Source: a virus. Taken from it: a DNA stretch of 25,986 nt. Location: positions 1-25,986 of the IMG/VR virus record IMGVR_UViG_3300043409_000750; one strand, 5' to 3'. Below the pieces are notes generated by a model, which ran no database searches, was not told the origin of the DNA, and saw nothing but the letters and a program-made list of their open reading frames with translations. The position numbers and the translations under genes were made by a program. Below are positions 12,949 through 23,185 of this stretch, in pieces. The first letter of the stretch is position 1; every line of letters starts with the position of its first letter.

Positions 12949-12976
12949 CAAATGTAATATAATTTTTTAATATAAA
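12949..12976 (-). promoter_or_regulatory. Promoter of the recombination operon
   Basis: Minus strand TTTA (12976-12973), 16 bases, TACATTTG (12956-12949). The block AGGTTTATATTAA and most of the rest are shared with the promoter at 22170-22197 (28 of 32 positions), so the two operons are probably controlled alike. Confidence 0.7.
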
Positions 12977-12995: not shown

Positions 12996-13358
12996 TTACA
13001 AAAATTCTTTTAATCCGTTCGCGCACCGCTCAATTGAATTTGCGCGCTCGTAAAGGCTTTTAATTTGGTTTTTAATAGTTTCCTTGCAATCAGTTGTAAA
13101 GTAGCCTTGTGAGGTTGCTATTAACGGAATTAAGCTATTTGAACGAATATAGTTTACTAACTTTCGTAATCGTGGACCGGTTAATCTTATTTTATACCCT
13201 CGATCACTCAAAAATTGATTCATGCGTTTTACTATTAATTCAGCTTTTATTGGGTTGTTCTTTTTATACGCCCTGAATCCATGAATTACAATTGGTAAAA
13301 TTTCCAATTCCTTATCCGTTAATTCATGCGTGTAATTTTCAAAATTTGTAACGCTCAT
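12996..13358 (-). CDS. Winged-helix-like protein linked to the IbrA gene
   Basis: 120 residues. ATG at 13358 forms an ATGA overlap with the IbrA-like gene. The order of elements, LTDKELEILPIVIHGF, NPIKAELIVKRMNQFLSDRG, IRLTGPRLRKLVNYIRSN and LIPLIATSQGYFTT, fits a winged-helix domain (helix-helix-recognition helix-wing) of the kind seen in small Bacteroidetes phage proteins. A C-terminal helix contains IKSLYERANSIERCANGL. Probably a DNA-binding protein, either a regulator of this module or a replication accessory protein. Confidence 0.65.
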   Translation of the reverse strand: MSVTNFENYTHELTDKELEILPIVIHGFRAYKKNNPIKAELIVKRMNQFLSDRGYKIRLTGPRLRKLVNYIRSNSLIPLIATSQGYFTTDCKETIKNQIKSLYERANSIERCANGLKEFL

Positions 13359-14650
13359 ATTTTGCTATATTTATTTTTAATGAATTTCATTCTTTCAATT
13401 TGTTCTTTTGTTGGTGAAAGTCCTAAATACTTACAAGTGTGATCGTTTTTTAAAATTGTTATTCCTAATCTTTTCCAGCTTGCTACATCGGAATTATGGC
13501 AACTTAACATATCTAAATGATCTGGTAAACTTTGTATCCTAACTCTATGCAATGTTTTACGACCATGAGCCGTAAAACCATTTAATTTAAATTCAATATT
13601 ATTATCTGTTAATTCTTGAATAATTCTATCGGGTAATCCGCGTCCCACTCTTCCCCAATACCTAATTGATTGAATGAAACGCTGCTTAAAATTTACAGCT
13701 GATTTTTCTGGTAAAGTATCTAATAAAAATTTAACAAACGATTTCCACGTATGCCCTAAAGGTAATTTAAAACTATTATAACTTAATTGTTTTCCATAAG
13801 TTGCAACAAAATTAGCTCCATTAACACGTGCGCAAAGCGTAATCCAAACATGAGGATCAATAATTCTGTATAAATTTAACGATGATTTACTTTCGCTCAT
13901 AAATGGAGATGCAACTCGCATTTGGTGTATTGATAAACCAGCTTTCCAAAACATATCATAAAGTTTATTATAATCCCAATCAAATTTACAATTAGCAATC
14001 CAAACATCTTCAGTTTTCCAATCATAAATAGGGTAACAATTATAAGCATGTTCAGTATTTCTTTTAGTCCATAAATTACCTCCATGAGTTTGTTTATTTT
14101 CATTTACAATTGCACGCCATCTATTTAAACTTTCATGTGTTCTAATTCCAATTAAACATGCACATTCTTTGCCTTGCGAATACCATTCTCCAAATTCATC
14201 CCAAAATTCTTGATAACCCATATTTTCACGAAAAAAAGGAAACTCATGATTATTAATATTTACTATATATTTTTCTTTTGACATTGGTCTAATCCAACGA
14301 TGCTCATCTTTCGAGCCCCAACATTGCCAATCAATTTCATAACTTGAAACCGTACAAGGTAAAGTAATAGGCAAACAACACCAAAAAACTTCTAAAACAT
14401 CTAAGTTTTTTTGAATTATTCGATGCATAAAACTTAATGACTCTGTATAATTAGCTTCATTATCTAATATCATTAAACCTATTTTTCGGTTTGGGTAATT
14501 TTTCCTTAATTCATCAATCATTAAATTAAGCATTACACCCGAATCTTTACCCCCTGAAAAAGACACATAAACTCGTTCAAATTTTTCTAAAATGTATTGA
14601 ATTCGATTTACTGATTCATCGTATACATTGTTTTCTAATATTTTAATCAT
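13355..14650 (-). CDS. ibrA: IbrA-like PP-loop (PAPS-reductase family) protein
   Basis: 431 residues, ATG at 14650. The PP-loop SFSGGKDSGVML (Ser32-Ser37 as SGGKDS) gives an ATP-pyrophosphatase / PAPS-reductase fold. Later landmarks are ILDNEANY, WCCLPITLPC, WIRPMSKE, CLIGIRTHESLNRW, a YPIYDWKTEDVW segment and RVASPFM. This is the architecture of IbrA proteins, known from E. coli prophages where ibrA/ibrB affect eib gene expression. The reaction is not established. The last 45 residues (ASWKRLGITILKNDHTCKYL region) resemble the small protein encoded just upstream. A ParB-like IbrB gene is in the same operon. DndC-type phosphorothioation is less likely because no DndD/E partner is present. Confidence 0.88.
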   Translation of the reverse strand: MIKILENNVYDESVNRIQYILEKFERVYVSFSGGKDSGVMLNLMIDELRKNYPNRKIGLMILDNEANYTESLSFMHRIIQKNLDVLEVFWCCLPITLPCTVSSYEIDWQCWGSKDEHRWIRPMSKEKYIVNINNHEFPFFRENMGYQEFWDEFGEWYSQGKECACLIGIRTHESLNRWRAIVNENKQTHGGNLWTKRNTEHAYNCYPIYDWKTEDVWIANCKFDWDYNKLYDMFWKAGLSIHQMRVASPFMSESKSSLNLYRIIDPHVWITLCARVNGANFVATYGKQLSYNSFKLPLGHTWKSFVKFLLDTLPEKSAVNFKQRFIQSIRYWGRVGRGLPDRIIQELTDNNIEFKLNGFTAHGRKTLHRVRIQSLPDHLDMLSCHNSDVASWKRLGITILKNDHTCKYLGLSPTKEQIERMKFIKNKYSKI

Positions 14651-14907
14651 AATTCTAATTTTAATTGCTTTACTTTTTGCCTGTTTTCAATTTCTATTTT
14701 TTTATATGCGTGATAATACTTTGATTTTATTTCTGTAAATCCAAGACTTTTTAACGCGTAATCATTTTTTAAAATCGCAAAACATATTCTACGATATGAA
14801 GGGACTTTATTTCTAATTTCTAATTCATTTGGAGCCTCGTCCGGTATTCCATTAGAATAACATCTTTGCTCCCACGTTTGAATGTATTTCTCTATTTTTT
14901 GTTTCAT
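14647..14907 (-). CDS. Stand-alone IbrA-tail (DUF3440-like) domain protein
   Basis: 86 residues, ATG at 14907, ATGA overlap with the IbrA-like gene. Sequence landmarks are YIQTWEQRCYSNGIPDEAPN and PSYRRICFAILKNDYALKSL followed by GF. The second is clearly similar to the C-terminus of the IbrA-like protein (WKRLGITILKNDHTCKYLGL), sharing the R-I/L-x3-ILKND-x4-K-x-LG pattern. It therefore looks like a separate copy of the IbrA C-terminal module, which may partner with IbrA. Its start overlaps the upstream gene by 56 bases and no later Met is available near the conserved part, so the start is fairly firm. Confidence 0.75.
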   Translation of the reverse strand: MKQKIEKYIQTWEQRCYSNGIPDEAPNELEIRNKVPSYRRICFAILKNDYALKSLGFTEIKSKYYHAYKKIEIENRQKVKQLKLEL

Positions 14908-15253
14908 ATTCTAAAATTATTTTTTCAGCTATTTTATTTGCGCTATCTTGTTTTTTTTTATTTAATAAACTCCATGCTATTCGAGTTAAATATTCAGGAG
15001 CGTTACATTTATACATACACGCCGCCGCACCTAACCACGCTTTTCTGTTTTGATTCCTATTACTTAAATTAACATCACTTGATATTTTCCAATCAATTAA
15101 TATTTTTTGACATGTAATGTAAAAATCATTTGGGTTTGATAATAGATTTATGCTTTCAATTACTTTTTTGTCTTTATCAATAACATCACTTGCGTTATAC
15201 ATTCCACACAAATAATCTTCCCATTTTTGATATTCAATATAAATTTGTTCCAT
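14852..15253 (-). CDS. All-helical protein of the IbrA/IbrB module
   Basis: 133 residues, ATG at 15253. The first half starts EYQKWEDYLCGMYNASDVID. The second half has RKAWLGAAACMYKCNAPEYL, then TRIAWSLLNKKKQDSANKIA and EKIILEYE, a pattern I associate with small phage proteins carrying an AW-LxxxxQDxAN-xA-xxI helix pair. It lies between the ParB-like and IbrA-tail genes and overlaps the latter by 56 bases. Likely a dedicated partner of the module; its function is unknown. Confidence 0.7.
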   Translation of the reverse strand: MEQIYIEYQKWEDYLCGMYNASDVIDKDKKVIESINLLSNPNDFYITCQKILIDWKISSDVNLSNRNQNRKAWLGAAACMYKCNAPEYLTRIAWSLLNKKKQDSANKIAEKIILEYETKNREIHSNVGAKMLF

Positions 15254-15259
15254 TTTAAT

Positions 15260-15886
15260 TTAATTATTATCACTTTCCCAAGCGTTACTAAATTCTTTAT
15301 TTGCAAATAATGAAGCTAATCCTGTAATTTGTTTCATTCGTAATAATTCATCAATACTCATTCCAACGTGTTTACAAATCCACGCGTCACCTTTTCCCAT
15401 TTCAACTAATTCAGTTACTATTGTACTCATTAATTCGATTGAATGAGATCCGCGTGCCCTGTTATGTCTTATAGTTGAAGCCATTCTATCACTTCTGCCT
15501 TGTTTCCATTGATTAATATTTACAACAGGCAGCCTACCGTGAACTCGTTGTTTAACCTCTTCAACTTCTTTACCTACTCTATTTCTATGAAATCCATCAA
15601 TTACAGTTATATTTTCTTCTTCTTTAAATGAAACTATTGGTTGCGTGTAACCATCTTCCATAATTGATTGTCTTAATAATTCCATTTCAGGAGGTGCAAC
15701 TGCATTTGGGTTGTAATCATTAGCCCTAACTATTTCATTTTTCACCCACAAAACACAATCAACAGGCTCGTTTCTCATTGGTGAAATTTCATGTAATGCT
15801 ATTTTAATTTCATTAATAGCGTCAATTTGTTCATCTATACTCAAATTTTCATAATTTGGCATTAATTCTAATAGTTTACTTTTCAT
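15260..15886 (-). CDS. ibrB: IbrB-like ParB-fold protein
   Basis: 208 residues. I start at the ATG at 15886 (MKSKLLELMPNYENLSIDEQ), 10 bases after the cupin stop. A start at 15940 would overlap that gene by 43 bases. Residues 50-125 are a ParB N-terminal domain: NDYNPNAVAPPEMELLRQSI, EDGYTQPIVSF, VIDGFHRNRVGKE (with the GxxR signature as GFHR), and GRLPVVNIN. Then follow DRMASTIRHNRARGSHSIEL, characteristic of IbrB, and a helix-turn-helix (GDAWICKHVGMSIDELLRMK). ParB-fold domains bind and often hydrolyse nucleotides such as CTP, but its role here is not known. It is paired with the IbrA-like gene in one operon. Confidence 0.88.
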   Translation of the reverse strand: MKSKLLELMPNYENLSIDEQIDAINEIKIALHEISPMRNEPVDCVLWVKNEIVRANDYNPNAVAPPEMELLRQSIMEDGYTQPIVSFKEEENITVIDGFHRNRVGKEVEEVKQRVHGRLPVVNINQWKQGRSDRMASTIRHNRARGSHSIELMSTIVTELVEMGKGDAWICKHVGMSIDELLRMKQITGLASLFANKEFSNAWESDNN

Positions 15887-15896
15887 TACGTTGTTT

Positions 15897-16262
15897 TTAA
15901 AGATTATAATTTCCATTTGAATCGTGCGTTTCATTTCCATTTAATGGAGGATTAAATACACTTATTAAAATAACTTCTGTTTCTGCAAAAAAAACATGAG
16001 GTTGATGATTATCTACTAAATACGTTACACCTTCATATATTTCATGTTTGGAATTTGTTGTCAAATCAATTAAATAACCTTTTCCAGAAATACAAGTGCA
16101 TGCCTCTTTATGATTTACATAATGCCATTTATAACCTCCACCTTTATTTATTATTGTTTTCATTAAAGCAAATCCTAATTGATCGCTTTTTAATACTGAT
16201 CGATAACTTGTACCGCCCTCAAATTTAACTCCTGTTAAATCTTTAAAATTAACTGTTTTCAT
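15897..16262 (-). CDS. Ectoine-synthase-like cupin (EctC family), orphan
   Basis: 121 residues, ATG at 16262. The whole chain aligns by eye with L-ectoine synthase: GFALMKTIINKGGGYKWHYV, NHKEACTCISGKGYLIDL, YEGVTYLVDNHQPH and the diagnostic VFNPPLNGNETHDSNGNY. The positions equivalent to the EctC iron ligands Glu57, Tyr85 and His93 are present here as Glu53, Tyr81 and His89, with identical spacing, so metal binding is likely kept. EctC cyclises N-gamma-acetyl-diaminobutyrate, but no EctA or EctB is present, so the phage enzyme probably uses another substrate. It opens a promoter-driven operon with IbrB- and IbrA-like genes. Family is near certain; substrate unknown. Confidence 0.88.
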   Translation of the reverse strand: MKTVNFKDLTGVKFEGGTSYRSVLKSDQLGFALMKTIINKGGGYKWHYVNHKEACTCISGKGYLIDLTTNSKHEIYEGVTYLVDNHQPHVFFAETEVILISVFNPPLNGNETHDSNGNYNL

Positions 16263-16284: not shown

Positions 16285-16314
16285 CAAATTTAATCTAAAT
16301 TTTTAATATAGCAA
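16285..16314 (-). promoter_or_regulatory. Promoter of the cupin-IbrB-IbrA operon
   Basis: Minus strand TTG (16314-16312), 19-base spacer, TAAATTTG (16292-16285), 22 bases before the cupin ATG. The leader AATTAAAAACAAAGTATATG matches that at 10367 almost base for base. Confidence 0.75.
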
Positions 16315-16323
16315 CTATCTTTT

Positions 16324-16854
16324 TTAATTATTTTCAATATTTTTTATTTTTGCCTTGTAAATACTAATTATTTCTTTTAACTCATTTGTTGAAAATTTGC
16401 GCGTTTTATCGGATTCATGCTTTAAAATACAAAATTTGTAAAATCCAATTTTAGTAATTAAATTTTCCCTGTATTCAATTAAATTACCGTGTAAATATGT
16501 ATTGCAATATTCACACTGTAAATGTACGTTGTCCTCGTTAAATCGAACGTTCCAATGGTTATTTGCATTGTAAAAATGTCCCGCGTTTTCCTTTAATGCT
16601 GGTTTATTACACGAAATGCAATTTTGCCCCGCATCACGAAGTCGAATAAATTTATTAAAAACCTGCTGTGCTAATTTTATGTAATCCTGAACGGTCATTA
16701 ATTCCGCTTTTAACTTTGCTTTTCGCTTTGTCCATTGCTTTTGCTTTGTTTCGTTTATCCAGTCGGTAACACAATTTGGTTCGAAGCAATTTTTTTGTAA
16801 AAATGCAATCGGTTCGAAACTGTTTTTACAATACTTACATTTTCGCGCTTTCAT
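16324..16854 (-). CDS. ninG: NinG recombination protein
   Basis: 176 residues, ATG at 16854 with an ATGA overlap with the methyltransferase gene. N-terminal zinc site KCKYCKNSF with Cys6, Cys9, Cys23 and Cys28. Then a basic helix region, QQVFNKFIRLRDAGQNCISC (Cys79, Cys82), AGHFYNANNHWNVRFNEDN (His93) and HLQCEYCNTYLHGN (Cys114, Cys117), the HNH-like second zinc region. This order is typical of lambda NinG/Rap, which acts on recombination junctions in phage crosses. It is the last gene of the replication operon. Confidence 0.92.
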   Translation of the reverse strand: MKARKCKYCKNSFEPIAFLQKNCFEPNCVTDWINETKQKQWTKRKAKLKAELMTVQDYIKLAQQVFNKFIRLRDAGQNCISCNKPALKENAGHFYNANNHWNVRFNEDNVHLQCEYCNTYLHGNLIEYRENLITKIGFYKFCILKHESDKTRKFSTNELKEIISIYKAKIKNIENN

Positions 16855-17459
16855 AATTTTATAAATTTAAAAATATGTTCAATTACGGGCAACGTCCATC
16901 CATCGCCTAATAAGGATCCCGCTTTTGCTTTTGATAAAATACTTGTATATCCATCCGGGAAACCTTGTAATCGTTCCATTTCTATTTGATTAACCGTTCG
17001 AACTTTTCCATCCTTATATGAATATAAATTATTATTTGATTCCATTAAACAAGGGCTTTTGCCTTTTGTAACGCGCCCGCGTCTGGTTGTTGAAGCGCTA
17101 CCAACATTTTCTTGTAAAAATAATACTTTTGGATTCAGCTTTTTAACGTGGTTTAATATTTCAACAAACGTAAAAAATAAACTTGATTTTTTGCCGTTTA
17201 TTCCCGCGCGTTTTCCCGCTGCGCTTAAATCTTGACACGGCGAACCGCTTAAAATTAAATCAATGCTTTGCCAATTAATATTCCATTCACGCCATTTTGT
17301 AACATCGCCAACCTGAATTGTGTCCGGGAAATGATATTGAGTTAATTCAATTGCATACGGTTTTATTTCACTTGAATAATATTTATTGACTTTTATACCT
17401 ACATTTTCGAGCGCTTGCCGTCCTGTATTCATTCCATTAAATAAGCTAACTACATTCAT
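16851..17459 (-). CDS. Compact DNA cytosine-5 methyltransferase lacking the middle region
   Basis: 202 residues, ATG at 17459. Motif I SLFNGMNTGRQAL (5-17), motif IV GSPCQDLSAAG with catalytic Cys75, motif VI LQENV (115-119) and motif X LLGDGWTLPVIEHIF (183-197) are all present, as is ERLQGFPDGYT. The roughly 60-120 residues that normally follow ENV, with the motif VIII QNRxR arginines, are absent: ENVGSA runs straight into STTRRGRVTKGKSPCL. Typical phage relatives are 270-350 residues. It may be a minimal enzyme, one needing a partner, or an inactive version. No restriction endonuclease is nearby, so self-protection or regulation is likelier than an R-M system. Confidence 0.88.
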   Translation of the reverse strand: MNVVSLFNGMNTGRQALENVGIKVNKYYSSEIKPYAIELTQYHFPDTIQVGDVTKWREWNINWQSIDLILSGSPCQDLSAAGKRAGINGKKSSLFFTFVEILNHVKKLNPKVLFLQENVGSASTTRRGRVTKGKSPCLMESNNNLYSYKDGKVRTVNQIEMERLQGFPDGYTSILSKAKAGSLLGDGWTLPVIEHIFKFIKL

Positions 17460-17755: not shown

Positions 17756-18793
17756 TTAAAAAGGTAAATTATTTTCGTTTGCTATTCTTATTTTTTCACT
17801 CGTTGACATTAATTCGGGTACGTTACCTAATTTTAGTTTTGTTGGAAATTGATTTGAAATCGGTTTAATTTCTGCTAAATCTTTTCTATTCGCGTAAACC
17901 TTGTTTCCTAAAATATCGAGCATGTAATATTGGTATTTTGAAACATCCAAATACATTTTATATATACCGTTTTTTGAAACTCCTTTCGGCTTGCTTTTAG
18001 CAACTTTAAAATGTACTTCGTTATCTTGATATTCATTACCGTTTTTATCGTTTAATCCGGCCGGTGGACGCCATGGAATTAAAACCGTTAATCCTTTACG
18101 AAACCAAACTTGACCGCCGGCGAAGTCGCGAGCCGTTGGCATTGGGTAAAATGTTTGATCGTTTTGCGTAATTGGTGCTTGATCCCGAACGTGGTTTATT
18201 ATGCAATTGTGGCGTTTTGTTTTCCTCGCGTTTTTTCTGGCCATTCCTAAAATTCTACTCAAATATTTATCTTCGCGCCCTAAATCCGATTGTATATACT
18301 CTTCAGTTAATTCATTCCATGGATCAATCGTTGTCGTATTTATTGTTATTTCGTGCGTTTTTTCAATTTCATCGACTAATTTATAAAAATTTTCTAAGGT
18401 TAAATCTTCATCAATTGGATCCACGACAATAAAATGATCGTTTACAAACATTTCAGCTGTTATTTGTTCGCCTTGACTCATCGAAAATTCGCCGATTGTG
18501 TACGGTTTCCCGATATATTTATGACAAAGTTCTGAATAAACTTCGGCTGCGCTTCCTGTTTCTGGTGAAAAAATTACATGTTTCCAACCGTGTAAACAAC
18601 TTAAATTAATTAGGAATTCAAACCAAATTTCTGTTTTTCCACTTGCGGGCGCCGCTCCAATATAGGTTGTACAACCCTCTTTTACGGTGTACGGTAATTG
18701 TTCAAAATCCCAACCGATTGATTTTCCACGTACATTTTTCACGTGCCGAATGTTATGTAATTCAGGCTGTAAATCGCTTAATCTTTTATACAT
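17756..18793 (-). CDS. RecA/DnaB-type ATPase, probable replicative helicase
   Basis: 345 residues, ATG at 18793. Walker A is GAAPASGKTE (46-55), after YTVKEGCTTYI. Then come a HVIFSPETGSAAEVYSELCH segment, the DPWNELTE and NHVRDQAPI segments in Walker B and sensor positions, and a conserved PMPTARDFAGGQVWFRKG stretch, all as in DnaB/Twinkle-type RecA folds. No primase or DnaB N-terminal domain is present, so it is a single RecA core plus a C-terminal tail ending NENNLPF, which resembles an SSB-type tip. It follows the winged-helix initiator by one base. Likely loaded at the origin by that protein. Confidence 0.85.
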   Translation of the reverse strand: MYKRLSDLQPELHNIRHVKNVRGKSIGWDFEQLPYTVKEGCTTYIGAAPASGKTEIWFEFLINLSCLHGWKHVIFSPETGSAAEVYSELCHKYIGKPYTIGEFSMSQGEQITAEMFVNDHFIVVDPIDEDLTLENFYKLVDEIEKTHEITINTTTIDPWNELTEEYIQSDLGREDKYLSRILGMARKNARKTKRHNCIINHVRDQAPITQNDQTFYPMPTARDFAGGQVWFRKGLTVLIPWRPPAGLNDKNGNEYQDNEVHFKVAKSKPKGVSKNGIYKMYLDVSKYQYYMLDILGNKVYANRKDLAEIKPISNQFPTKLKLGNVPELMSTSEKIRIANENNLPF

Positions 18794-18794
18794 T

Positions 18795-19418
18795 TTATTC
18801 GTGTATTATTGGTGGACTGTAAACGTTACCGGCATCCGTTCGTAAATATCGAAGCGTATTTAATAAAGTTGTTTTCCAATTAGAAATTTTCCTTTGTTTA
18901 CCGTCCACGTTTACGCACCAATCATTTACTAACCAACTTTTGTACTTCAATTGAACATCTTGTTTGTTTATATTTGGAATTTGACTAACTGAATAAGCTA
19001 AAAATTCATCAATCGACGGTATAGTTATTTCTTTATTTTCTTTCTTTTCTTTATTGTTAGTGGTTACTCGCTGGTTATTCGTTGGTTGCTCGTTTGTTGT
19101 TTCGTTGGTTTCTATTTGATATTTTTCGTAGTTAACTATTTGAATTATAGTACCTTGCGAACTTGTAACGCTGGTTACTTCGTTGGTTGAAATTAGCTTG
19201 TTTAATGCGGTTCTAATTTGTTGTGAACTTAGTCCCGTTTCACGTGCTAATATATCGCGGCTGGTTACAATTGATCCTTTTTTTAGTTCAATTCCTTTAA
19301 ATCTTTTTTGCTTATAATTAGCTTTTAAAACTAAATGCGTAAACAAACGAAAACAATTATTATCGGAATACCATTCCCATTCTAAAATTTGCCTGTGTAA
19401 TTTAATCCAGCCGCTCAT
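18795..19418 (-). CDS. Winged-helix replication initiator-like protein
   Basis: 207 residues, ATG at 19418. The N-terminus SGWIKLHRQILEWEWYSDNN, then LFTHLVLKANYKQKRFKGIE and IVTSRDILARETGLSSQQIR...LNKLISTNEVT, is the winged-helix domain of phage replication proteins. Residues 98-125 are a polar low-complexity linker (NETTNEQPTNNQRVTTNNKE region). The C-terminal part (FLAYSVSQIPNINKQDVQLK; WLVNDWCVN) is DnaD/O-like and probably contacts the ATPase. The linker-coding DNA carries 11-bp iterons, as the lambda O gene carries its origin. It precedes the helicase-like gene by one base. Confidence 0.8.
   Translation of the reverse strand: MSGWIKLHRQILEWEWYSDNNCFRLFTHLVLKANYKQKRFKGIELKKGSIVTSRDILARETGLSSQQIRTALNKLISTNEVTSVTSSQGTIIQIVNYEKYQIETNETTNEQPTNNQRVTTNNKEKKENKEITIPSIDEFLAYSVSQIPNINKQDVQLKYKSWLVNDWCVNVDGKQRKISNWKTTLLNTLRYLRTDAGNVYSPPIIHE
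19061..19112. repeat. Iteron-like 11-bp repeats, candidate replication origin
   Basis: On the plus strand the units TGGTTACTCGC, TGGTTATTCGT and TGGTTGCTCGT follow head to tail at 19061-19093. A degenerate unit TTGTTGTTTCGT and a partial TGGTTTC come next. Two further copies (TGGTTACTTCGT, TGGTTGA) lie at 19172-19190. An AT-rich pyrimidine tract lies beside the array at 19031-19056. The array encodes the polar linker of the initiator-like protein, so the repeats could alternatively reflect low-complexity protein sequence. Confidence 0.6.
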
Positions 19419-19584
19419 CTCTAAATGATTCTAAAGTTTTAATCAATGTAAACGCCTGTTTATTATCAATACAAACAGTTTTTGATTCTCCATTTTCAAA
19501 AATTTCAAAACAAATCCAATCACCTTTTGAAACAATCATTTTATCTTGGTCATTAAATTGACATTGTAAATAAATTTCATTCAT
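19402..19584 (-). CDS. Small unknown protein before the initiator gene
   Basis: 60 residues, ATG at 19584. Sequence NEIYLQCQFNDQDKMIVSKG then DWICFEIFENGESKTVCIDN suggests a small beta-rich fold, ending in a helix. It overlaps the initiator gene by 17 bases. A 7-codon reading frame (MLKNLDL) just upstream ends in ATGA with this start, so translation may be coupled to a leader. Function unknown. Confidence 0.65.
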   Translation of the reverse strand: MNEIYLQCQFNDQDKMIVSKGDWICFEIFENGESKTVCIDNKQAFTLIKTLESFRDERLD

Positions 19585-19604
19585 AAATCTAAATTTTTAA
19601 GCAT

Positions 19605-19697
19605 AAAAAAAACCTCTTAAATCCTTTGGGGTCTGACGTCCAAATTCATTAAAAGGTCTTAATAACTTCTTTAGGTTCTATATTGTCAGACCGAACC
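19605..19697 (-). ncRNA. Structured leader RNA with kissing-loop potential and terminator-like end
   Basis: Minus strand. Hairpin 1 is GGTTC (19697-19693) / GAACC (19678-19674), with loop GGTCTGACAATATA. Hairpin 2 is TTTGG (19644-19640) / CCAAA (19629-19625), with loop ACGTCAGACC. The eight bases GGTCTGAC in loop 1 are the perfect complement of GTCAGACC in loop 2, so the two loops can kiss. Hairpin 2 sits inside an outer stem CCTTTTAA (19656-19649) / TTAAGAGG (19620-19613), followed by eight T. An alternative pairing GGTCT / AGACC is also possible. It sits between a promoter (19703-19730) and the replication operon, like an attenuator or riboregulator. Structure drawn by eye, no homolog search. 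Confidence 0.6.
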
Positions 19698-19702
19698 GTT
19701 TG

Positions 19703-19730
19703 CAAATATACAAATTATTTTCTAATCAAA
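19703..19730 (-). promoter_or_regulatory. Promoter of the replication operon / leader RNA
   Basis: Minus strand TTTG (19730-19727), 16 bases, TATATTTG (19710-19703). Transcription would begin at about 19697, at the first base of hairpin 1 of the leader RNA. The -33 box overlaps the stop region of the 40-residue gene upstream. Confidence 0.65.
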
Positions 19731-19844
19731 CTCATTATTTATCCAAATTTTTAATAATTTTCTTTTTTGGTTTTGATAAACCCTGTTATTCCGAACAATT
19801 AACAGTGTGTTATGGTATCGCGTTAAATTGCGTTTTGCTTTCAT
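19722..19844 (-). CDS. 40-residue basic peptide
   Basis: ATG at 19844, in ATGA overlap with the upstream gene, and TAG at 19722. It starts MKAKRNLTRYHNTLLIVRNN and continues RVYQNQKRKLLKIWINNEFD. It is rich in Arg and Lys, so may bind nucleic acid. The overlap and length support a real small gene, last of the early operon. Confidence 0.55.
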   Translation of the reverse strand: MKAKRNLTRYHNTLLIVRNNRVYQNQKRKLLKIWINNEFD

Positions 19845-20137
19845 AAATAATCGCCCTTAATTACTTTATTTCTAACTAAAAAATTGTGTTTTACAAAACT
19901 TGACATTTCACGTTTGAAATTTCTGTATTCCCAAACGGATCCTAAATCATTTGAATTTATAAACTTCATTTCTTTTTTAATATCTGAAAAATAGTTTATT
20001 TCGGATCCGCTCATTTCCTCGACCAACAGATAATTATTTTTGTAAACTTTTGAGTAAATTGTCCCGATTATTTCATGCGAAACAATTACCGCAAACGGTT
20101 GCTTTTTTTCGTGTAATTCAGCTATTGTATAAAACAT
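19841..20137 (-). CDS. Unknown 98-residue early protein
   Basis: I start at the ATG at 20137 (MFYTIAELHEKKQPFAVIVS). The open frame reaches back only to a TTG at 20152. An SH3-like beta core is suggested by IIGTIYSKVYKNNYLLVEEM. The C-terminal part is basic and helical (VWEYRNFKREMSSFVKHNFL). It overlaps the 28-residue membrane peptide gene by 20 bases and the 40-residue gene by 4. No family recognised. Confidence 0.65.
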   Translation of the reverse strand: MFYTIAELHEKKQPFAVIVSHEIIGTIYSKVYKNNYLLVEEMSGSEINYFSDIKKEMKFINSNDLGSVWEYRNFKREMSSFVKHNFLVRNKVIKGDYL

Positions 20138-20204
20138 AACAAAGCGAAACAAACGAAACCAGCCCCGTAAACATCCAACCGTAAAAAATTATTCTCTCAA
20201 ACAT
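20118..20204 (-). CDS. 28-residue membrane peptide
   Basis: ATG at 20204, TGA at 20118. Sequence MFERIIFYGWMFTGLVSFVS then LCYVLYNS is a single hydrophobic span. It overlaps the following gene by 20 bases. A TAAATTTG box lies four bases upstream of the ATG but without a clear -33 partner. Tentative gene. Confidence 0.4.
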   Translation of the reverse strand: MFERIIFYGWMFTGLVSFVSLCYVLYNS

Positions 20205-20226
20205 ATTGCAAATTTAGTTTATTTTT

Positions 20227-20433
20227 TTATCGTAGTAATTGATATTCATTAATATTATTTTTTTGCGCGTAATCCAAAAGGATTTCAACGCATTTTTCAA
20301 GTTTACGACTGCATCCTAAATAGTTTTGTTTGTAATCTTTATTAATATGCACCACAAAATAATCGTAGGTTCCGTATTCGTGCTTTACAGTACGTTTAAA
20401 AATGTGTTTATACCTGATTTTTTCTGTTTTCAT
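20227..20433 (-). CDS. Unknown 68-residue early protein
   Basis: ATG at 20433. Basic N-terminus (TEKIRYKHIFKRTVKHEYGT), beta segment YDYFVVHINKDYKQNYLGCS, then helix LEKCVEILLDYAQKNN. It may be a small nucleic-acid-binding fold of beta-beta-helix type. It starts one base after the stop of the gene before. No family recognised. Confidence 0.6.
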   Translation of the reverse strand: MKTEKIRYKHIFKRTVKHEYGTYDYFVVHINKDYKQNYLGCSRKLEKCVEILLDYAQKNNINEYQLLR

Positions 20434-20434
20434 G

Positions 20435-20707
20435 TTAATTTATTTTACTTTTTATTACAAATTTTAATTCTCCGTTAATTTCCGATTCTTTGCTTTCGTG
20501 GATTGAATCCGGGTAAAATTGAACGAAATTAAATCTATTTGCGTTTCTTGTTTTTAACGGGTTTTTTATCTCACTCGAATACATTTGTACTCCCGAGCCT
20601 ATTAAGTCGCTTAAAACGGCTAAAACACGCTTTAAATCGACTGCGTTTGTGTACTCTAATGATATGCTAACCTCTTTTGTACGTTGTTTTGGGTTTTTAA
20701 AATTCAT
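20435..20707 (-). CDS. Unknown early protein, paralog of the 21717-21986 product
   Basis: 90 residues from the ATG at 20707. I chose this over 20752 because the paralog starts at the equivalent place (MNFKNPKQRTKEVS here, MNWKNRQRRKKHVD there) and the upstream gene ends at 20715. Shared core: ISLEYTNAVDLKRVLAVLSD-like segment and HESKESEINGELKFVIKSKI. The pattern is a beta strand, a long helix (VDLKRVLAVLSDLIGSG) and beta strands. The two copies flank a block of four small genes. Function unknown. Confidence 0.7.
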   Translation of the reverse strand: MNFKNPKQRTKEVSISLEYTNAVDLKRVLAVLSDLIGSGVQMYSSEIKNPLKTRNANRFNFVQFYPDSIHESKESEINGELKFVIKSKIN

Positions 20708-20714
20708 TTTGTGC

Positions 20715-20957
20715 TCATTTGTTAAAGGTTTCATTGTAGTATTGTTCTGCATTCATATTATAGTGTGATACATTTTCACCACCATCATAAATGCCACAAT
20801 CAAAAGCATAAATTATCTGCTTTTTTTCTTCATTTAATCTATTTTGTGCATCTGTTAAAGCCAATTCTAAAATTTTTAGTAAAGTTGGTTCTGAATCTTT
20901 GCATATTTTCAATGCTTCTTTAAGCCACTCAATATGTTCTTGCATTGCTGTTTTCAT
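20715..20957 (-). CDS. Small helical protein in the repeat-leader cassette
   Basis: 80 residues, ATG at 20957 at the edge of a 23-bp leader repeat. Helical: EHIEWLKEALKICKDSEPTL, LKILELALTDAQNRLNEEKK, then acidic-polar YDGGENVSHYNMNAEQYYNE. Few CG-containing codons compared with neighbours. No family recognised. Confidence 0.65.
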   Translation of the reverse strand: MKTAMQEHIEWLKEALKICKDSEPTLLKILELALTDAQNRLNEEKKQIIYAFDCGIYDGGENVSHYNMNAEQYYNETFNK

Positions 20958-20977
20958 TCTATTCTGATTTAAAGGTT
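20955..20977 (-). repeat. Leader repeat, copy 1 of 3
   Basis: 23 bases identical to 21224-21246 and 21454-21476. On the minus strand each ends in the ATG of a small gene. The repeat has core CTTTAAATCAGAATAG, and copies 1 and 2 contain the stop codon TAA of the preceding gene. Confidence 0.85.
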
Positions 20978-21226
20978 ATTTTTCTCTAATTCTGCAAGTA
21001 AAGCATCTGCTATCATAACAGCAGCATATGGAACATTTTCAGCCATTTCAGTTGGGATATTATGTCTACCTGCAATTGCTTGAACTGATAATCCTGTTGC
21101 TATGTGTACAGCAAAATATTCTCTTTTGGTTAAGCCTATTGGTAAATCATGTGGTGTTTGATTTATAAAACTTTGTTCAGCACCTCTCATTGGGTCTGGA
21201 TAAATTGGTTCTTTTCCGTTTTTCAT
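20969..21226 (-). CDS. Small protein in the repeat-leader cassette
   Basis: 85 residues, ATG at 21226. Starts KNGKEPIYPDPMRGAEQSFI, then TKREYFAVHIATGLSVQAIA, ending LEKNNL. The YFAVHIATGL(S) part fits short phage proteins of the KREYFAAxAMQGLL type, found near replication genes in many phages. Function unknown. It ends inside leader repeat copy 1. Confidence 0.7.
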   Translation of the reverse strand: MKNGKEPIYPDPMRGAEQSFINQTPHDLPIGLTKREYFAVHIATGLSVQAIAGRHNIPTEMAENVPYAAVMIADALLAELEKNNL

Positions 21227-21246
21227 TCTATTCTGATTTAAAGGTT
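21224..21246 (-). repeat. Leader repeat, copy 2 of 3
   Basis: Identical 23 bases as copy 1. It contains the TAA stop of the upstream gene and the ATG of the downstream one. Confidence 0.85.
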
Positions 21247-21456
21247 AATTATTTCTTGTTTAACTTCTTGCCAATAAGAAAACCTATTTGCAAAGTCTTT
21301 TTCTATTAGTTCTTCAATTATTTCATCAACTGCAATTAAGGCGCATTGTTTTGCTGTACTTGGAAACATTAATTCACTTGGAGGAATACAACCTTTTCTA
21401 TTAAATGGGTTTCTGTATTGATTTATTAACTTTTCTGCTTTTTCTTTCGGTGTCAT
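21238..21456 (-). CDS. Small helical protein in the repeat-leader cassette
   Basis: 72 residues, ATG at 21456. Starts MTPKEKAEKLINQYRNPFNR and contains TAKQCALIAVDEIIEELI, a common pattern in small Bacteroidetes phage proteins (KEKAxxLxxxY ... KQCAxIAVDEI). Two helices with a Cys/Pro-containing turn. Function unknown. Confidence 0.7.
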   Translation of the reverse strand: MTPKEKAEKLINQYRNPFNRKGCIPPSELMFPSTAKQCALIAVDEIIEELIEKDFANRFSYWQEVKQEIINL

Positions 21457-21476
21457 TCTATTCTGATTTAAAGGTT
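21454..21476 (-). repeat. Leader repeat, copy 3 of 3
   Basis: Third identical copy. It runs into a 17-base stretch at 21468-21484 that recurs with one change at 20722-20738, so the three-gene cassette is bounded by direct repeats. Confidence 0.85.
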
Positions 21477-21489
21477 TCGTTGTAATTAT

Positions 21490-21720
21490 TTATTTATATG
21501 GTTTTGAATTAAGCCAAATTGGGTTACTATCCTTTATAGGTTTTTTATATTTTTTACCCTTTTCATAAGCATCTTTCATCTGCTCTTTCTCCATTTCTTT
21601 GGCTTTGTTGAGCAACTCTAACCTTAAAAGACCATATTCAAGTTCACTAATTTTTTCTGCTAAAAAGTCAAGAGTTAATTTTACTTCTTGCTCTGCGTAC
21701 CATTCTACTGCTGTTTTCAT
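21490..21720 (-). CDS. Small helical protein
   Basis: 76 residues, ATG at 21720, ATGA overlap with the paralog gene upstream. Begins KTAVEWYAEQEVKLTLDFLA and contains LEYGLLRLELLNKAKEMEKE, a long helix typical of small phage proteins beginning TAVEWLxxQ. Basic C-terminus (KGKKYKKPIKD). Function unknown. Confidence 0.7.
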   Translation of the reverse strand: MKTAVEWYAEQEVKLTLDFLAEKISELEYGLLRLELLNKAKEMEKEQMKDAYEKGKKYKKPIKDSNPIWLNSKPYK

Positions 21721-21986
21721 ATTTTACTTTTAATTACCAATTTTAATTCCCCGTTAATTTCGCATTCTTTACTTTCGTGAACCGTATTTTCAAAGCTTTG
21801 AATAAAAAAAAACTTATTGCTTTTATCCTCTTTCTCTAAGCTTTTTAATTGTCCTGAATGCGTTTCCTTACCCGAACTAATTAAGTCGCTTAAAACGTTT
21901 AAAATATGCTTTAAATCAACTTCGTAGGTGTACTCGAAAGAAATATCTACGTGCTTTTTGCGTCTTTGTCTATTTTTCCAATTCAT
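21717..21986 (-). CDS. Unknown early protein, paralog of the 20435-20707 product
   Basis: 89 residues, ATG at 21986. Core VDISFEYTYEVDLKHILNVL, then SDLISSG, and C-terminal HESKECEINGELKLVIKSKI, nearly identical in its last 20 residues to the other copy. Linked to both neighbours by ATGA overlaps. Function unknown. Confidence 0.7.
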   Translation of the reverse strand: MNWKNRQRRKKHVDISFEYTYEVDLKHILNVLSDLISSGKETHSGQLKSLEKEDKSNKFFFIQSFENTVHESKECEINGELKLVIKSKI

Positions 21987-22147
21987 TTTGTAGGGTAATC
22001 GTTTATAACTGATAAATAATCTAAATAAAGATCTACGTTAAAAGATCCACTTTTTTCCTCAGGTGTGTTTTTTGATCTCCATTTTCTAATCATATACATT
22101 AAATTAGGCTTTAATGGAATAAACGTGTTTACTGCTTGTTTTTTCAT
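21983..22147 (-). CDS. 54-residue protein opening the early operon
   Basis: ATG at 22147, TGA at 21983 in ATGA overlap with the next gene. Starts MKKQAVNTFIPLKPNLMYMI, then RKWRSKNTPEEKSGSFNVDL and YLDYLSVINDYPTK. It sits directly behind a good promoter and has the 4-base overlap seen across the operon. Function unknown. Confidence 0.65.
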   Translation of the reverse strand: MKKQAVNTFIPLKPNLMYMIRKWRSKNTPEEKSGSFNVDLYLDYLSVINDYPTK

Positions 22148-22169
22148 AATCATTTCGTTTTTGTTTCAA

Positions 22170-22197
22170 CAAATTTAATATAAATAATTAATATAAA
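22170..22197 (-). promoter_or_regulatory. Early operon promoter
   Basis: Minus strand TTTA (22197-22194), 16 bases, TAAATTTG (22177-22170), 22 bases before the first early gene. Shares AGGTTTATATTAA and most of the spacer with the promoter at 12949-12976. Confidence 0.7.
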
Positions 22198-22278
22198 CCT
22201 AATTTATTTTCAATTATTTTCAATTTATTTTTAAAACCCTTGTAAACATTAGGATTTCTGAACAAAAAAAAATGATAT

Positions 22279-22312
22279 AAAACACAAAATCCGCCTATTT
22301 CTAAGCGGATTT
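22279..22312 (-). terminator. Terminator after the lysis genes
   Basis: Minus strand AAATCCGC (22312-22305) pairs perfectly with GCGGATTT (22294-22287) around a 10-base loop. A T-rich tail (TGTGTTTT) follows. It separates the tail/lysis operon from the early promoter. The rest of the 22198-22353 gap is AT-rich, with no other signal seen. Confidence 0.75.
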
Positions 22313-22353
22313 CATGCAATTAAGTAAAAACAAGTATATCAAAGCATTCAAAT

Positions 22354-22635
22354 TTAGCGTTTAAATCTCTTTAAAACAAATTTTATTATTCTTTTTGCAA
22401 TAATTTTCCATAAAGCGCCCGTTGCATCAACTTTCACCTCGATCCCTTCAGGCGTTTTTTTAATATCAATATCGATCTTTTTTCCATCGTAGTGAAATTC
22501 TTTGTTTAACTCATCTTTTACTACGTTAATATCAATGTTTTTTGTGTCAACGTCCAATTTAAAATTTGTTCCGTCCTTTTCCAAATTAATATCTACGTTA
22601 TCCGTATTTATTTTAACCGTTTTTTTCTTTGCCAT
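22354..22635 (-). CDS. Small lysis-cluster protein with cationic amphipathic C-terminus
   Basis: 93 residues from ATG at 22635 (MAKKKTVKINTDNVD), just after the endolysin stop; a start 12 bases earlier is possible. Residues 5-70 are charged beta strands repeating an x-ID-I pattern (NVDINLEKDG, NIDINVVKDE, KIDIDIKKTPEG). Residues 74-93 switch abruptly to an amphipathic helix, ALWKIIAKRIIKFVLKR and on, carrying about eight positive charges. Such a tail suits binding to or disturbing a membrane. No signal peptide or span. No known family. A lysis role is suggested by position and composition only. Confidence 0.65.
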   Translation of the reverse strand: MAKKKTVKINTDNVDINLEKDGTNFKLDVDTKNIDINVVKDELNKEFHYDGKKIDIDIKKTPEGIEVKVDATGALWKIIAKRIIKFVLKRFKR

Positions 22636-22636
22636 T

Positions 22637-23185
22637 TTAAAATTCATTAATTAAACATATTGAAACGGCGCTAAAATCTTTTGCCATTTTAACCATGCGC
22701 TCGTAATCCGCGTTATTATTTAAAACCAAACAACCCTCCGACCAACCGCCAATTTTAGTCGCTATTTGCTGCGATCCTTTATTGTAAGTTGCGCCGTGAA
22801 TATTCATGTTAATAATATCGGTTTTTATTTCGGTTGTAGGGTTTGTTTTTCCATCCGCTGTAAAATCGCGCTGGTATGGAATTCGTTTAACTTGCCGTAA
22901 TGCTTCCATTTTGCCCCTGTGCAACCCGTAACAATATGAATCGTAATTCCATTCATCCGCTCGCATTACCGCCGTTCCTTTATTTCCTTTATTTGTCGTG
23001 CAACTTGTTACAAATTGAAATTGGTTAAATTTAAAAATATAAACTTTGTCATCAAACACGTCGTTTTGATCCTCATTCGATCGAACGAATAAAAGCCATA
23101 ATCCGGCCGGAATAAAAGTAAAAGTTTTTAAACTCATTACCCTATCGAGTAACTGTTTATCGGTATAGCTTTGTACGTTTGTCAT
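22637..23185 (-). CDS. L,D-transpeptidase-fold protein, probable endolysin
   Basis: 182 residues, ATG at 23185. The C-terminal half carries the YkuD-like signature: INMNIHGATYNKG with His130 and, 19 residues on, GGWSEGCLVL with Ser149, Gly151 and Cys152 (the H...S-x-G-C pattern). The N-terminal half begins SYTDKQLLDRVMSLKTFTFI and includes the beta strand VYIFKFNQFQF. No signal peptide is visible, so release would need a holin. Phages use this fold as peptidoglycan-cleaving lysins. A cell-wall modifying role is the alternative. It lies between a membrane protein and the cationic-tail protein. Confidence 0.75.
   Translation of the reverse strand: MTNVQSYTDKQLLDRVMSLKTFTFIPAGLWLLFVRSNEDQNDVFDDKVYIFKFNQFQFVTSCTTNKGNKGTAVMRADEWNYDSYCYGLHRGKMEALRQVKRIPYQRDFTADGKTNPTTEIKTDIINMNIHGATYNKGSQQIATKIGGWSEGCLVLNNNADYERMVKMAKDFSAVSICLINEF

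Follow-up and report, generated by a model that had tools for sequence, protein, structure and literature searches.

The window analyzed here, the 25,986-base virus record IMGVR_UViG_3300043409_000750 (positions 1 to 25,986), carries on its minus strand a compact gene set built around IbrA and IbrB, a widespread and unexplained enzyme pair of phages and plasmids in which IbrA-like genes are often named PAPS (3'-phosphoadenosine 5'-phosphosulfate) reductase. At this locus the pair is accompanied by a cupin of the ectoine-synthase (EctC) family, an all-helical protein (Hel) and a detached C-terminal part of the IbrA type ("tail"). IbrAB and EctC are each already known; it is the combination of the five genes that appears to be new, and we name it the EctC-type Ibr module. 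The locus is laid out as follows:

16285-16314, minus strand: promoter of Bacteroidota type, TTG-N19-TAAATTTG, upstream of the module
15897-16262, minus strand: EctC-type cupin, 121 residues (PF06339, E 5.5e-32)
15260-15886, minus strand: IbrB, ParB/sulfiredoxin-like, with a DGFHR motif (phrog_2159, E 1.7e-69); start of the longest open reading frame at 15940
14852-15253, minus strand: Hel, all-helical, 133 residues, no known family
14647-14907, minus strand: tail, stand-alone DUF3440 C-terminal part, 86 residues (PF11922, E 2.6e-8)
13355-14650, minus strand: IbrA, PP-loop (PAPS-reductase-like) plus DUF3440, 431 residues (PF01507, E 1.7e-10; PF11922, E 5.1e-58)
12996-13358, minus strand: downstream co-oriented protein ("winged helix"), 120 residues, outside the conserved module (phrog_2113, E 4.4e-8)

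All six open reading frames given by a first-pass annotation of this DNA are present at these coordinates and run in the same direction. The overlaps that it described are real for IbrA and the downstream gene and for the tail and IbrA (4 nucleotides each, ATGA), as well as for Hel and the tail (56 nucleotides), but the overlap of the cupin with IbrB depends on the start codon chosen; it vanishes with an IbrB start at 15886 (M19 of the longest frame), which matches the starts in aligned relatives and leaves a gap of about 10 nucleotides instead.

A five-gene unit conserved among phages

Alignments of EctC, IbrA and Hel were searched in viral contigs, and IbrA also in bacterial genomes, which yielded 317 loci and, after removal of duplicates, 230 distinct ones. 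The IbrAs form two groups, at least 60% identical to the module clade (109 loci) or less than 50% identical (112 loci), with hardly any in the gap, although sampling through conserved peptides may overlook intermediate forms. Loci of the clade have an EctC hit in 108 of 109 cases, IbrB in 107, Hel in 102 and the tail in 95, whereas none of the 112 loci with more distant IbrAs has an EctC-type match. Loci fetched by IbrA alone, and thus unbiased for EctC, gave the same picture (EctC in 46 of the 47 with enough flank). The first-pass annotation had named a neighborhood survey as the result that might refute its link between the cupin and IbrA/B; the survey speaks strongly in favor of the link, and the proposed self-contained system of PP-loop chemistry, a ParB-fold protein and a cyclizing cupin is well supported, since the cupin belongs to a cyclodehydratase family and its metal site is intact. 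The inclusion of a sixth gene did not hold: the conserved unit is EctC, IbrB, Hel, tail and IbrA, and we rejected a six-gene module because the winged-helix gene is not conserved, a close homologue adjoining the module in only one other contig, with one further distant match.

Public phage genomes show the same division. The nearest IbrAs, at 64-65% identity, belong to Mycobacterium phages Gaia and Nebkiss and Pseudoalteromonas phage XCL1123, and no other exceeds about 41%; these three are exactly the phages with an EctC homologue adjoining or fused to IbrB, plus Hel and the tail. IbrA-EctC-IbrB-Hel-tail is the commonest gene order (73 loci); the order varies elsewhere while membership is kept, and the core genes share a strand at every one of 108 loci. 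A fusion of EctC with IbrB occurs in 40 of 113 cases and indicates that these two proteins act together; no other fusion between unlike core proteins is common. GenBank records of the fusion already bear the label "ectoine synthase/ParB multidomain protein". In a maximum-likelihood tree of 47 IbrAs, the EctC-bearing members lie on one side of a single branch (Shimodaira-Hasegawa-like approximate likelihood ratio test 100, length 0.52), which requires one change, so EctC was most likely recruited once and then retained through changes in gene order.

The module has most likely spread since then among phages of several host phyla, and it is carried by phages of Bacteroidota, Pseudoalteromonas and Mycobacterium. 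Nearly all finds of its EctC form come from viral records, the exceptions being a few bacterial contigs assembled from metagenomes (L238 and L240 among them). IbrA relatives in general turned up in 215 phage records and 600 plasmid records, and no plasmid relative exceeds 60% identity to the clade IbrAs. Helicases, exonucleases, primases and ERF-type recombinases recur as neighbors, which places the module in the replication region; the neighborhood search found no further constant partner gene. Gaiavirus modules have an extra gene between the EctC-IbrB fusion and Hel (L003:6890-7264, Gaia gene 105), GIY-YIG-like by the Nebkiss annotation and with no Pfam match at E<=0.01.

Two clade loci depart from the common pattern. 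L118 has no EctC, and a 1-Cys peroxiredoxin stands between IbrA and IbrB instead (L118:3868-4617); in L102 a degenerate cupin, which at 32.6 bits to PF06339 is one of the 108 EctC hits, is followed by a peroxiredoxin (L102:5519-6181) that is 63% identical to that of L118. We rejected peroxiredoxin as a general partner of the module, these being the only two such loci found in the viral collection.

The open-access literature searched yielded no paper on EctC together with IbrAB, on the conserved set of five genes, on its origin in one event or on the changes in the active site, most subscription literature lying outside that search. The linkage points to an undescribed phage-borne chemical pathway, and a near-obligate EctC partner of known chemistry offers a handle on the function of IbrA and IbrB.

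Altered cupin pocket and predicted folds of the partner proteins

The cupin matches PF06339 with 111 bits (cut-off 27) and falls below the cut-off of the NCBIfam ectoine synthase model (115.5 versus 128 bits). Its residues were surveyed in 113 full-length homologues, of which 112 are module-type or contig-end copies and one, L005, is unrelated, and read against the roles assigned from Paenibacillus lautus EctC structures (PMC6344544). The iron ligands Glu-57, Tyr-84 and His-92 (E53, Y81 and H89 in the window cupin) are kept in 113, 113 and 112 of the 113, the equivalents of Ser-23, Arg-25, Thr-40 and Tyr-52 in all of them and Phe-106 in 110. The contacts to the ectoine precursor have been lost. 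The substrate-positioning Trp-21 shows no variation among 437 cluster-encoded EctCs and persists, sometimes shifted by two positions, in 145 orphans (PMC6344544); in our set it is replaced by Gly in 95 and by Phe in 13 (Gly17 in the window), and Trp is absent from the clade save for a nearby one in L117. Asn-38, which binds the substrate carboxylate (PMC6344544), has become mostly Thr, His, Met or Cys (Met34 in the window), and an EACxC motif with two new cysteines (residues 55 and 57) has been gained in 112 of 113. L005 lacks IbrA, retains the Trp and reaches 191 bits against PF06339; it lies outside the module set and is a canonical or orphan EctC. EctA and EctB were absent from all 36 module-bearing viral records, many of them fragments, with host genomes outside the scope of the search. 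Because Trp-21 and Asn-38 are replaced, EACxC is gained and EctA and EctB are absent, the module is unlikely to be an ectoine pathway. We infer that metal-assisted cyclodehydration has been kept and the substrate changed, the new one probably being larger than the ectoine precursor. With the module, EctC proteins of a non-ectoine class gain an initial genomic and biochemical setting.

IbrA has both expected domains (PF01507, 41.6 bits, cut-off 22.5; PF11922, 196.2 bits, cut-off 25), and its SGGKDSG loop is invariant in seven aligned clade members. In the AlphaFold model (mean predicted local distance difference test, pLDDT, 86) the PP-loop domain is nearest to FAD synthase (Z 15.9) and CysD (15.1), followed by APS (adenosine 5'-phosphosulfate) and PAPS reductases (13-15) and by TilS and the GMP and NAD synthetases (10-12). 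Members of the FAD synthase/CysD/PAPS-reductase subgroup use ATP to activate phosphate- or sulfate-bearing substrates. A PDB sequence search gave weak PP-loop matches only, and IbrA stays far below the cut-offs of the curated models for CysH (TIGR00434, 12.1 versus 165.1 bits) and DndC (TIGR03183, 24.8 versus 290.4 bits), the latter a weak similarity to a DNA-modification enzyme. Cys-91, -99, -110 and -273 are specific to the clade, Cys-92 and Cys-406 are more general, and one might speculate that the conserved clade cysteines of the PP-loop domain hold a metal or an iron-sulfur cluster. The tail matches positions 140-179 of PF11922 and resembles the C-terminal segment of ordinary IbrAs; against a tail profile the C-terminus of the clade IbrAs themselves has a median of about 21 bits, compared with about 94 for the stand-alone tails.

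IbrB matches Pfam ParB_N below its cut-off and does not reach that of the partition ParB model TIGR00180 (13.3 versus 58.45 bits), and a PDB sequence search returned only ParB 4umk and a designed repeat. Nearly all IbrBs share a DGF/YHR motif, whose DGFHR form differs from the usual CTPase motif of partition ParB; a C-terminal segment of IbrB, RMASTIRHNRARGSH...DELLRLKQ, is highly conserved. The AlphaFold2 model of Hel is confident (pLDDT 92) and all-helical; searches assigned the protein to no family and gave no convincing PDB match (Foldseek E at best 0.55; the top Z score, 3.9 to 14-3-3, is too low to be meaningful in a helical bundle), so that the fold suggests no function. The downstream winged-helix protein matched phrog_2113 only.

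Borders and composition of the locus

The promoter first placed upstream of the module fits the Bacteroidota-type pattern, and 10 such sites occur in the window compared with 3.3 in shuffles. A second promoter had been placed at 12949-12976, where only a TAnnTTTG element is present, so a module bounded by promoters on both sides was rejected. The reported scarcity of CG dinucleotides is measurable (CpG observed/expected 1.21 versus 1.78 and 1.55 in the flanks), yet another CpG-poor dip (about 1.24) lies near 18.6-19.5 kb, in the region 18600-22800, and the module is thus not the sole compositionally distinct stretch of the window. It is also true that the module lacks GGATCC, which occurs 16 times elsewhere, but only about 2 sites would be expected there at the flank rate, which makes this a weak mark, and we dropped it as a marker of the module.

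GGATCC is itself about 11-fold over-represented in the window (16 versus 1.45 expected from dinucleotide shuffles), ranks first among all 64 six-base palindromes and stands at 894, 1319, 1598, 2135, 4201, 5121, 5618, 5895, 8186, 12494, 16914, 18417, 19937, 20003, 23520 and 23819; several other six-base palindromes, including CTTAAG, CCGCGG and CTGCAG, are absent. The window also encodes NinG, an ERF recombinase, an exonuclease, a portal protein, a terminase and, at 16851-17459 on the minus strand, an unusually short C5-cytosine methyltransferase (202 residues) whose PF00145 match is mainly N-terminal and which apparently has no normal target-recognition domain.

Candidate functions and relation to known systems

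Over all rivals we favor, tentatively, an ATP-driven pathway that modifies nucleic acid or nucleotides and in which ring closure falls to EctC. At its PP-loop site, which is of the PAPS-reductase/FAD-synthase/CysD type, IbrA would spend ATP on activating (adenylating) the substrate, and IbrB, with its ParB/sulfiredoxin fold and DGxHR motif, may then hold or phosphorylate the activated species. The IbrB-coupled EctC, a putative iron-dependent cyclodehydratase with a reshaped pocket, would close the ring in a step modeled on the conversion of N-gamma-acetyl-diaminobutyrate to ectoine, in which an amine attacks a metal-activated amide carbonyl and water is lost. Hel and the detached DUF3440 tail may be accessory subunits. 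The target would most likely be a nucleic acid or nucleotide, and the purpose could be protection from host defense or control of phage or host expression. The first-pass annotation had put forward DNA or nucleotide modification, anti-defense and superinfection control as candidate roles. ParB-like proteins, DpdB and DndB, work in DNA-modification systems (PMC12839542). The more exact proposal of a new nucleic-acid or nucleotide hypermodification, where the EctC-type iron cupin closes a ring such as a cyclic amidine on an IbrA-activated, IbrB-held substrate, is doubtful; if true, it would give the IbrA/IbrB family a specific chemistry and extend the modifications of phages by a new type.

Several observations weigh against a modification pathway. 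The substrate, the product and any modified base are hypothetical; IbrA reaches only 24.8 of the 290.4 bits set for DndC, and the module has no sulfur-donor or nuclease partner. Because the EctC linkage goes back to one event, 108 of 109 does not amount to 108 independent observations. A peroxiredoxin occurs at the EctC position in two clade loci, and EctC is not strictly essential, since L118 has none and L102 only a divergent cupin. The earliest description of IbrA/IbrB, moreover, was of an activator of prophage genes, which leaves room for a regulatory role: IbrB, with a ParB fold and a predicted helix-turn-helix-like C-terminus, would be a DNA-binding activator, and IbrA and EctC would make or sense a small-molecule ligand through which phage or prophage expression is adjusted, in line with reports on ibrAB and the eib genes in E. 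coli. A paper cited in PMC10434257 describes IbrAB as co-activators of prophage genes. Phage records carry the name "co-activator of prophage gene expression", and the conservation of the IbrB C-terminal segment also fits. Three catalytic-looking proteins with conserved active sites are, however, more than a regulator needs, and IbrB retains DGFHR, unlike the CTPase motif of partition ParB; we consider a regulatory module rather improbable.

Alternatively, the target could be not DNA but a free nucleotide, a cofactor or an immune signal, which the module would modify or destroy, serving in counter-defense or acting on the nucleotide pool. The enzymes whose folds come closest to IbrA (FAD synthase and APS/PAPS reductase) have free nucleotides and oxyanions as substrates, EctC naturally works on a small molecule (PMC6344544) and the neighborhood contains no other constant nucleic-acid-processing gene, but the module includes no known signal-degrading family and gave no strong PADLOC match, and we judge this unlikely. 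Auxiliary metabolism, with phage ectoine for osmoprotection and IbrA as a PAPS reductase for sulfur assimilation, is suggested by pipeline annotation names and by the PF06339 match above the gathering score, and a 2026 virome paper takes viral ectoine synthase as osmoprotective (PMC13079714). It is highly improbable, and both halves were rejected on the absence of EctA and EctB (0/36 viral records), the substrate residues (Trp-21 lost in nearly all) and the curated cut-offs missed (ectoine synthase 115.5 versus 128 bits, CysH about 12 versus 165); the near-obligate linkage of EctC to IbrAB also speaks against it. In virome surveys, viral "ectoine synthase" calls and some "cysH" calls may stem from this module rather than from osmoprotection or sulfur assimilation.

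Among characterized systems, Dnd/Ssp phosphorothioation (DndC, DndB) and Dpd (DpdB) appear similar in pairing a PAPS-reductase-type PP-loop enzyme with a ParB-superfamily protein, but the module is without a cysteine desulfurase, DndD/E or a restriction partner, and its EctC has no counterpart there. With EctC itself (Paenibacillus lautus 5onn, Sphingopyxis alaskensis 5bxx and orphans) the cupin shares PF06339, the iron ligands and Arg-25, Thr-40, Tyr-52 and Ser-23; it differs in lacking Trp-21 and Asn-38, in having EACxC and in being tied or fused to IbrB with no EctA/EctB. The ordinary IbrA/IbrB pair of E. coli (ybdN/ybdM in K-12) and many phages and plasmids has the same PF01507+PF11922 IbrA and an adjacent IbrB with DGF/YHR. 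Compared with that pair, the module's IbrAs are at least 60% identical among themselves and at most about 45-50% identical to the rest and have gained four cysteines (Cys-91, -99, -110 and -273), a DUF3440 C-terminal piece has become a separate gene, and EctC has been added, usually adjoining or fused with IbrB.

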